Assembly: GCA_003132145.1 (NCBI GenBank) | Contig: PKWU01000074.1 | Location: forward strand, 1 to 54,985 | Length of the DNA: 54,985 bases | Reading direction: 5' to 3' | Source: Granulicella sp. | Lineage (GTDB): Bacteria > Acidobacteriota > Terriglobia > Terriglobales > Acidobacteriaceae | Shown here: positions 32,584-34,760 of the stretch, piece by piece | Layout of the letters: the number at the start of each line of letters is the position of its first letter | Numbering within the stretch: position 1 is the stretch's first letter | Translations under genes and position numbers: made by a program | The notes under the pieces: model-generated | Databases searched by the model: none | The model's input: the letters and a program-made list of their open reading frames with translations, nothing else | What the model was told of the DNA's origin: nothing

Positions 32584-33030
32584 CTAGGCCACCATCTTCT
32601 CCCGCCGCGGAGACGCCTGTATCGTCCGCACCAGGTCCACCACCGTCACCAGAGGAGAATCCAGCAGGCCCGGCAGATAGATCCGCCCCGTCTCCGCCAG
32701 CAACGCGCGGATCGTCTCCCGCAACTCCTCGCTGTCCAGGCCGAGATCGCAATCCAGATCGTCGAACGGATCGATCGGAAAGGCCGCCTTCTGGCGTTTC
32801 TGCAGGTGCCGGTAGGTGGCGCGGGCAAGCTCAGGGTCGAATCCGTACCCAGCCAGATACTCCACAAACGTCTCCTCGGTGCACCCAAAGCGGTCACGCA
32901 CCAGCGATGATCGCCGTCTTTGCGCCGATATATAGAGGGCCGTGAAGCCAATCAGTATGCCCAAGCCTATGAATAACAACGGCAAGGAAAGATCGGCAAG
33001 CCAATGCTGCACGGAAAGTGGAGTAGACAT
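32584..33030 (-). CDS. Membrane-anchored protein with an acyl-carrier-like domain
   Basis: The product is 148 residues from the ATG at 33030. One membrane segment (LSLPLLFIGLGILIGFTALY) precedes a charged stretch. Then PIDPFDDLDCDLGLDSEELR (about residues 85-104) resembles the acyl carrier protein site, where Ser100 in GLDSEEL would carry 4'-phosphopantetheine. The helical spacing around it also fits a four-helix carrier-like fold such as DUF1493. I did not find a partner synthase nearby. The resemblance is by eye only and could be coincidental. An ORF start at 33069 (TTG) is open too. The 222 bases between this gene and 32361 hold no feature I can support. Confidence 0.5.
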   Translation of the reverse strand: MSTPLSVQHWLADLSLPLLFIGLGILIGFTALYISAQRRRSSLVRDRFGCTEETFVEYLAGYGFDPELARATYRHLQKRQKAAFPIDPFDDLDCDLGLDSEELRETIRALLAETGRIYLPGLLDSPLVTVVDLVRTIQASPRREKMVA

Positions 33031-33626
33031 CACGAACGACCCGGGGGAAAAATCTTTCAGGGATTGCAACTCGACGCATTCATGGCCGATGGTCGAATGA
33101 AGATAGCTATGCGCTCAGATGGCGCAATCTCCAGACTTAAAACTTACTATACTGAGATCGGCTCGTTTCACAGAATTTGCACAAAATCCGAATAAAATCC
33201 CGATTCGGGACTGCTTCGGACAAGGCCCCATCCATCCCTTCCAGGAGGTTTGCGATCGCTTCCCTAACCCCATCGCCGCTCTATCGAAGCGCTTCCGTGG
33301 CGCGGTGAAGCCAAAGAAGAACTTGCATCGTATATTTATTAAGCGTGGTGTCCTGCGGAAGGTGGCACACCATCCTATCGGCGTGCCGGGGTTCGAGAAA
33401 CCATCCGGAAACATGGTGCATGTCGGCGGCTAGAGCGGTTTCAGCGTAGGTCTTTACAATGGCAGGGAGTGCTTGCGTGGTTTTTCCTCAAGAAAAACCA
33501 CTTCACAGGTCTACGCGGGATAACAGTTACGCTGAAACCGCTCTAATCTTCCGCGAAAGGCAGCGTTTCATCTTTGACGGTCTGCCAGATTGATGTCATC
33601 AGTATTCTGTTGTTCTGAGGCCTGGG
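33031..33626. other. Gene-poor stretch with lower GC
   Basis: The only clear feature in these roughly 600 bases is the second MITE-like element (33431-33545). The open frame 33119-33433 ends inside that element and has no ribosome site or recognisable sequence; I do not call it. Composition is less GC-rich than in the surrounding genes. Confidence 0.5.
33431..33545. mobile_element. 115-bp MITE-like element, copy 2
   Basis: Terminal inverted repeats are 18-bp perfect (33431-33448 and 33528-33545, TAGAGCGGTTTCAGCGTA). The inner hairpin GTGGTTTTTC / GAAAAACCAC is identical to copy 1. Relative to copy 1, paired bases changed on both arms (for example C-G to G-C next to GGTTTCA), so pairing is conserved. 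Confidence 0.85.
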
Positions 33627-34760
33627 TTGAGAGAGAAACAACGTCAGTTCGAGGTCATCGAAAGCCGCCAGATGGACCACCTCGGCGTCTTTCACGAGGT
33701 CGCGCGCGCCCTCACCCAGACCCTCGAACTCGAAGAGATCCTGCTCATCATCATGCAGAAGATGGCCCAGTTCTTCGGCCCCGAGCGCTGGTCCATGCTC
33801 ATGGTCGACGAGGAGGCCCAGCAGCTCAACTACGTCATCGCCGTCGGCGAGAACTCCGAAAGCCTCAAGGGCCTGCATGTGCCCATGGGCGAGGGCGTCG
33901 CCGGATGGGTCGCCTCCACCGGCAATCCCCTGGTCGTGCCCGACGTCTCCCTCGACATCCAGTGGCACGCCTTCTCGCGCGCCCATCCCGAACTTAAAAT
34001 CCGCTCCATCGCATGCATCCCCATCCGTTCCGGAGAGAAGACCCTCGGCGTCATCCAGCTCCTCAACACCAAGCTCGACCTGGAGAGCGAGTACTCCATC
34101 TCCTTCCTGCGCATCCTCTGCGACTACGCCGCCATCGCCATCCAGAACGCCCGCTCGGTCAAGCTCATCCACGAACTCACCATCACCGACGACTGCACCG
34201 GCCTCTTCAACGCCCGCCATCTCTACGCCCTGCTGGACGAGCAGATCGAGCTCGCCGCAACCATCCCCGAGACCCGCTTCAGCCTGCTCTTCGTCGACCT
34301 CGACCACTTCAAAGAGGTCAACGACACCCACGGCCATCTCATCGGCAGCCGCCTGCTGGCCGAGGTCGGCGGCCTCATGCGCCGCACCCTCGGCCCCGCA
34401 AACTCCTGCTTCCGCTACGGCGGCGACGAGTTCGTCGCCCTGCTCCCAGGCCTCGAAAAGCAGGCCGCCATCGACGCCACAGTGAAGCTCTGGGAGCAGC
34501 TCCGCAAGGCCCGCTTCCTCACCGGCCAGGGCCTCTTCCTCGCCCTCGCCGGCAGCTTCGGCCTGGCCACCTTCCCCGAGGACGGAGCCAGCGTTCCAGC
34601 CATCATCCGCGCCGCCGACACCATGATGTACGAGGCCAAAACCACCCGCGACAACATCAGTGTCGCCGGCCTCGGCCTGCTCACCGGAGCCAAACCCGCC
34701 ATCCCCTCCGGCAAGACATCAACCATGCTCGCCGGAGACCTCGAAGCCCGCAGCCGCTAG
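33627..34760 (+). CDS. GAF-GGDEF diguanylate cyclase
   Basis: The product is 377 residues. Residues about 15-185 form a GAF sensor domain (MDHLGVFHEVARALTQTLEL, then GEGVAGWVASTGNPLVVPDV and SIACIPIRSGEKTLGVIQLL). A GGDEF domain follows: LTITDDCTGLFNARHLYALL, then FVDLDHFKEVNDTHGHLIGS and the signature YGGDEFVALL near residue 265, all intact, so c-di-GMP synthesis from two GTP is expected. No RxxD inhibitory site is evident five residues before the signature. The C-terminal tail after FGLATFPEDGASVPAIIRAA is short. TTG at 33627 is the most upstream start; ATG at 33672 is another. The effector is unknown. Confidence 0.85.
   Translation: MREKQRQFEVIESRQMDHLGVFHEVARALTQTLELEEILLIIMQKMAQFFGPERWSMLMVDEEAQQLNYVIAVGENSESLKGLHVPMGEGVAGWVASTGNPLVVPDVSLDIQWHAFSRAHPELKIRSIACIPIRSGEKTLGVIQLLNTKLDLESEYSISFLRILCDYAAIAIQNARSVKLIHELTITDDCTGLFNARHLYALLDEQIELAATIPETRFSLLFVDLDHFKEVNDTHGHLIGSRLLAEVGGLMRRTLGPANSCFRYGGDEFVALLPGLEKQAAIDATVKLWEQLRKARFLTGQGLFLALAGSFGLATFPEDGASVPAIIRAADTMMYEAKTTRDNISVAGLGLLTGAKPAIPSGKTSTMLAGDLEARSR

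Follow-up and report, generated by a model that had tools for sequence, protein, structure and literature searches.

A membrane-anchored, probably acyl-carrier-like protein family of Acidobacteriota in which the carrier serine is not conserved

The window, by which we mean the whole analysed stretch of 54,985 nucleotides of Granulicella DNA, contains a gene for a small protein, P0001, and we lean, with some reserve, towards regarding it as a single-pass inner-membrane protein that holds an acyl-carrier-like helical bundle in the cytoplasm and has lost the carrier role, i.e. a pseudo-ACP. The acyl carrier protein (ACP) fold in this reading is inferred and has moderate support. The initial annotation had seen in P0001 a carrier-like domain at the membrane; the anchor stands and an ACP-like fold is probable from sequence profiles and, weakly, from structure, but the carrying of an acyl chain is unsupported.

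Results

The gene and its family

The gene is an ATG-started frame that runs on the minus strand from 33030 to 32584 and encodes 148 aa, laid out as one N-terminal membrane helix, then a basic stretch next to the membrane, then a domain of roughly 100 residues (Table 1). There is one copy in the window's genome. Close copies were found on two Granulicella MAG contigs (86% and 89% identity to P0001), and the sister sequences L021 and L029 are 65% and 63% identical to it. Among the three close sequences P0001, L017 and L018, dN/dS is 0.27-0.33 for the whole gene and 0.225-0.245 for residues 46-148, so P0001 is constrained in this clade, where the gene, as judged from these ratios, is under purifying selection.

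Table 1. Features of the P0001 gene and of related loci, with positions in the window or locus names
Feature	Position	Strand	Basis
Gene for 148-aa membrane-tethered ACP-like protein (P0001)	32584..33030	-	ATG ORF; homologs; dN/dS
Single transmembrane helix, about residues 15-35	32926..32988	-	hydropathy in 26/26 rows
Basic juxtamembrane stretch, residues 36-50	32881..32925	-	net charge
ACP-like domain, residues 51-142	32605..32880	-	profile comparison, low-confidence models, fold searches
Ser100 (AGC), at the position of the ACP phosphopantetheine serine; not conserved	32731..32733	-	7/26, 7/40
Long-form loci with ECF sigma-factor and zf-HC2 genes ahead	L055, L057, L065, L066, L073, L074		

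Relatives of the family were found in Acidobacteriota. A search with the single sequence matched 15 of 200 genomes of P0001's taxonomic family, the window's own included, and four of these matches were frames of 936-951 aa of the AMP-ligase type. Frames of this length in L010, L012, L014 and L015 have a carrier domain with LGLDSM at the C-terminal end, and in the scanned pair, L010 and L014, both AMP-binding and PP-binding domains were found, i.e. an AMP-ligase plus a carrier. In the order, 46 of 397 genomes (the window's own included) were matched in a search with an alignment of 14 rows, and in a phylum sample 16 of 297. Only matches with E below 1e-10 were counted as family members and weaker ones were kept apart, which gives 37 genomes with members and 9 with weak matches only in the order, and 11 and 5, respectively, in the phylum sample. 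The frames with weak matches were of 913 aa or more in 13 of 14 cases and of 466 aa in the remaining one; the nine from the order lie in frames of 913-991 aa and are taken to be the ACPs of AMP-ligases. One member, L050, with L069 as its wider locus, comes from another family of the phylum. In genome G194 (L058:8750-9813) the short version is duplicated in tandem, with copies of 148 and 167 aa.

The comparisons below use a set of 40 rows, 26 close (P0001 included) and 14 more distant relatives, in which duplicates with identical last 60 residues were collapsed, matches with E above 1e-10 were dropped and P0001 stands in for the window copy L001.

Membrane helix and charge

The membrane anchor that had been noted ahead of the carrier-like motif is confirmed as one hydrophobic stretch, seen in all 26 close relatives. 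The 19-residue mean of Kyte-Doolittle hydropathy reaches 2.28 in P0001, in the segment starting at residue 16, and the maxima across the close relatives are 1.93-3.13. The predicted membrane tether of P0001 is thus well supported. Summed over the 26 relatives, 6 lysines and arginines precede the helix and 136 follow it; the C side is the more positive one in each of them and, by the positive-inside rule, the ACP-like domain would therefore be cytoplasmic. The juxtamembrane stretch of P0001 has a net charge of +4, which is also the median of the 26 rows (range +2 to +6). Residues 51-141 are acidic, with a net charge of -8 in P0001 and a median of -9 (range -13 to -6) in the close relatives. More distant relatives show far less of this acidity (median net charge -0.5, range -16 to +4), a difference that weakens the case for one electrostatic mechanism throughout the family. 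Longer relatives, of 277 and 416 aa in L055, carry additional sequence on the N-terminal side of the domain, and read by eye there seems to be a second hydrophobic segment in this front part.

Resemblance to acyl carrier proteins

The motif that drew attention to the protein, PIDPFDDLDCDLGLDSEELR, is indeed present in P0001, with its serine as residue 100. Since the motif is weak alone and no family is listed for P0001 in Pfam even at E 10, a carrier reading of the single sequence could be due to chance, and the resemblance to ACPs emerges only with profiles at the level of the family. P0001 reaches no cut-off in NCBIfam. The sole row given there, TIGR00819 (E 0.17), scores 10.4 bits where the cut-off is 753.55 and was put down to chance. 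Among the 26 close relatives, Pfam lists PP-binding for two (best E 0.001), TOC159_MAD for five (best E 0.0091) and DUF4381 for three (best E 0.0042), and the latter two families are taken as chance matches. The consensus of the domain matches PP-binding in register, residues 43-94 on profile positions 18-67, at E 0.038, with TOC159_MAD ranked above it (E 0.013) and with 14.7 bits, below the gathering score of 20.8 for PF00550; for the full-length consensus PP-binding is not listed by Pfam.

In comparisons of profiles with hhalign, the probability against four ACP domains of AMP-ligases was 93% and the score 41, with a maximum of 28 in shuffles and none of 120 as good, in a comparison that is not blind, as these domains came from the same family search. 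Against all 20 carrier domains the values were 76% and 31 (shuffle maximum 22, again 0/120 as good). Type II ACPs alone gave a borderline score of 20.9, which one shuffle in 60 of each kind also reaches, and the match to NRPS carrier domains did not exceed chance (41/60 and 41/60 shuffles as high). The alignments with the AMP-ligase carrier domains are in register, serine on serine, and the in-register match spans 54-76 columns. Among the 21 sequences listed in a PDB sequence search (E up to 10), ten carry the name of ACP or of its form in complex I; their E values start at 0.13, and each of them matches the second half of the profile. FabZ chains (E 0.003-0.07) took the first four places, on profile positions 52-95 in the first half of the domain, and these are taken as chance.

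An ACP is a four-helix bundle with a long loop I and with helix II beginning at the serine. Two AlphaFold models, built from the sequences of P0001, L017 and L018, are of low confidence (mean pLDDT 46.8 and 54.1, pTM 0.36 and 0.41). The helices predicted for the domain are 52-61, 66-79, which would be helix I of an ACP, 100-114 (II) and 130-139 (IV); they come in the order of an ACP, helix II opens at Ser100, and the short helix III is absent from both models. In a Foldseek search, 28 of the 50 matches listed (of 110) name ACP in the title and 17 are chains of 71-95 aa from mitochondrial complexes, presumed to be ACPs (2 of the 17 were named ACP or NDUFAB1 in the PDB search), which leaves five that are neither. 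No Foldseek match reaches E 0.001, the best being 0.34. With VIA-align 2, which saw only the candidates from Foldseek, the best Z was 4.8 (76 aligned, rmsd 3.3) and none reached 5; according to the note of the tool such a Z may mean just a common arrangement. The order and placement of the helices would fit a four-helix carrier fold, which is only weakly predicted and in the models lacks its third helix. All in all we consider it likely that the domain has the ACP fold.

The serine position

The initial annotation had named lack of conservation of the serine as grounds for refuting its own reading, and the serine is indeed not conserved: the residue is serine in 7 of the 26 close relatives and in 0 of the 14 more distant ones, a count from which six genomes (G021, G225, G292, G403, G230 and G277) are excluded. 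Elsewhere among the 40 rows the position holds D (8), E (8), P (5), T (3) or other residues, and the column has the fifth highest entropy among the 97 of the domain. The tree requires five changes of the serine, three of which are imposed by branches with good support; the serine is not clearly clustered, as 78 of 500 shuffles of the labels give a number as low. The serine codon, AGC, is identical in P0001, L017 and L018, and the nearest sisters outside this trio, L021 and L029, have D and E at the position. Other parts of the scaffold are well kept in the 40 rows, namely Leu92 (38), Asp95 (35), Leu96 (37), Arg116 (39), Val130 (36) and Gln138 (36).

The motif by which the transferase recognizes its substrate is DS followed by Leu, Met or another hydrophobic residue. 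The Asp before the serine position is kept in 13 of 40 rows. P0001 keeps Asp-Ser, as do L037 and L039, and has Glu101 after it; over the 40 rows this next position holds E (13), T (6), D (5), A (4) or one of V, I and L (5 together). Carrier domains of the same phylum have L (13), M (4) or S (3, with L077 and L078 among them) there, and none of the 20 has an acidic residue. Asp-Ser followed by a hydrophobic residue occurs in one row of the 40, L033 (Asp-Ser-Val). The suggestion that an acyl chain is tethered at the membrane is therefore unsupported, as the serine is found in 7/40 rows with five changes on the tree and neither of its flanks, Asp and hydrophobic, is kept. Carrier function was rejected on the variability of the serine (7/26, 7/40, five changes, fifth most variable column), and most likely the domain of P0001 is not an acyl carrier. 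An acid or Ser/Thr at this position would fit an ordinary helix cap.

Gene neighbourhood

Next to the P0001 gene, at 33064-33430 on the plus strand, lies a remnant of moaA (GTP 3',8-cyclase) in which the start and the last ~45 codons can be recognized and the middle is missing. A gene for a GAF-GGDEF diguanylate cyclase follows at 33627-34760 (+). L017 likewise has a remnant of moaA and L018 a near full-length copy, and elsewhere in the window's genome no strong match to moaA was found (the best at E 3.5e-12 and 28% identity). The domain stays constrained though moaA is a remnant in the window and in L017, which suggests that it is independent of MoaA.

Of the 15 short-form loci, 14 have a GAF-GGDEF gene in the vicinity together with moaA, which is a near full-length homolog in 12 and a remnant in two (the window and L017); Pfam was run on four of the moaA genes and on the GGDEF gene of the window. 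L069, from the other family of the phylum, has neither moaA nor a GGDEF gene. The same moaA-GGDEF pair is present in 8 of 8 genomes of the same genus without a reported family member, and in these no member was found within the 1600 bases of upstream sequence searched. As a functional clue this neighbourhood was therefore rejected, and the linkage is inherited gene order.

In six of the eight long-form loci (Table 1), genes for an ECF sigma factor and a zf-HC2 protein precede the long version; two sigma genes and one zf-HC2 gene were run against Pfam and the remaining ones were assigned by similarity. Two consecutive genes with the domain are found in L055, L056, L057 and L065. Homologs of the long-form sigma and zf-HC2 proteins were found in 0 of the 15 short-form loci. 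The sigma-factor and zf-HC2 genes ahead of the long versions favour a regulatory or adaptor role for these over a biosynthetic one.

Discussion

An alternative to the pseudo-ACP reading that we find rather unlikely, although it is to be taken seriously, is that P0001 has an unrelated helical domain associated with the membrane, that its likeness to DLGLDS is convergent, and that the Ser, Asp, Glu or Thr at the position of Ser100 is just an ordinary helix N-cap. The models of low confidence with no significant structural match would agree with this, and so would a P0001 without any Pfam family, PP-binding in 2/26 relatives, which is fewer than for TOC159_MAD, FabZ ranked above ACP in the PDB sequence search, and profile comparisons that are marginal for type II ACPs and nil for NRPS carriers. 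Against it are the profile match, which stays in register across 54-76 columns, the order and placement of the helices as in ACPs, and that 45 of the 50 structural matches listed are ACPs or presumed mitochondrial ACP chains and not assorted bundles.

P0001 could also be a genuine acyl carrier tied to the membrane, if only in the window's Granulicella clade, with Ser100 phosphopantetheinylated and presenting an acyl chain there, which we regard as very improbable. Asp99-Ser100 with an identical AGC codon in P0001, L017 and L018, a serine that, as in ACPs, opens the predicted helix II, and Asp-Ser also in L033 (there followed by Val), L037 and L039 are in its favour, but the sisters L021 and L029, at 65% and 63% identity, have D and E, the glutamate after the serine in P0001 has no acidic counterpart in 20 carrier domains, and a serine in 7/40 rows bears no signature of an essential residue. 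Hardly less improbable is that the protein, with its domain as a protein-interaction module of any fold, serves as a regulatory subunit in envelope stress or signalling, in either an ECF sigma/anti-sigma or a cyclic-di-GMP pathway. The ECF sigma-factor and zf-HC2 genes that precede the long versions in 6/8 loci, and the GAF-GGDEF gene near the short version in 14/15, could be read in this way, but the moaA-GGDEF neighbourhood is generic (8/8 genomes of the genus without a reported member) and homologs of the sigma and zf-HC2 proteins are found in 0/15 short-form loci.

As a pseudo-ACP, P0001 would share with the PF00550 carriers the in-register profile match, strongest with the ACP domains of AMP-ligases, and the Leu/Asp/Leu ahead of helix II. 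It would differ from them in that its family has neither a conserved serine nor a DSL/DSM motif, in its membrane helix and an extra predicted N-terminal helix (52-61), and in that its domain scores below the gathering score of Pfam. Seven type II ACPs have net charges of -8 to -14, a range that takes in the -8 of residues 51-141 in P0001. The DUF1493 proteins (PF07377) are ACP-like and without the serine, a likeness to the P0001 family that is a resemblance only, and PF07377 was not listed for the 26 close relatives in Pfam at E 10, where filters drop weak matches. The genome likewise gave no PF07377 match, in a search whose control gave none either.

Genuine ACPs use an acidic surface around helix II to bind their partner proteins at basic patches. 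We hypothesize that in P0001 an ACP-like cytoplasmic bundle is anchored to the inner membrane by its own helix, that an acidic surface around helix II might be used for non-covalent docking, and that the protein would thereby hold or sense a partner at the cytoplasmic face and not carry an acyl chain. Candidates for such a partner would be an enzyme that uses ACP, a membrane enzyme or a regulator.

The docking proposal is made by analogy with three systems. In EmbB-AcpM, a basic cytoplasmic loop binds helices 2-3 of AcpM by charge at the membrane (PMC7305291). The likeness is an ACP at the cytoplasmic membrane face, and the structure, 7bwr, is among the structural matches of P0001; the difference is that AcpM is a separate, soluble ACP and has no tethering helix of its own (PMC7305291). 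ACP is also described as contacting the regulator SpoT, and thus as working via protein contact in a regulatory pathway, but there it is a soluble and real ACP and serves as an analogy only (PMC3340395). In PUFA synthases, inactive ACP domains (Ser to Ala) can still contribute structurally, so that a serine-less ACP domain can matter through its structure, although those domains are engineered and sit inside a megasynthase (PMC5067506).

It is a more far-reaching thought, and as a whole an unlikely one, that an Acidobacteriota family of membrane-tethered pseudo-ACPs, themselves free of any acyl chain, docks enzymes or regulators that bind ACP to the inner membrane by mimicry of the ACP surface, with the longer versions wired to ECF sigma and zf-HC2 proteins. 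Searches of an open-licence library with the terms used brought up no paper on an ACP anchored in the membrane in this way.

A DLGLDS in a single sequence is, as this case cautions, insufficient for calling a carrier. If the fold holds, we have here a family outside the Pfam and NCBIfam models searched that would have retained the scaffold of an ACP, lost its chemistry and come with a membrane helix of its own, and in which the ACP surface would serve purely as a docking module.
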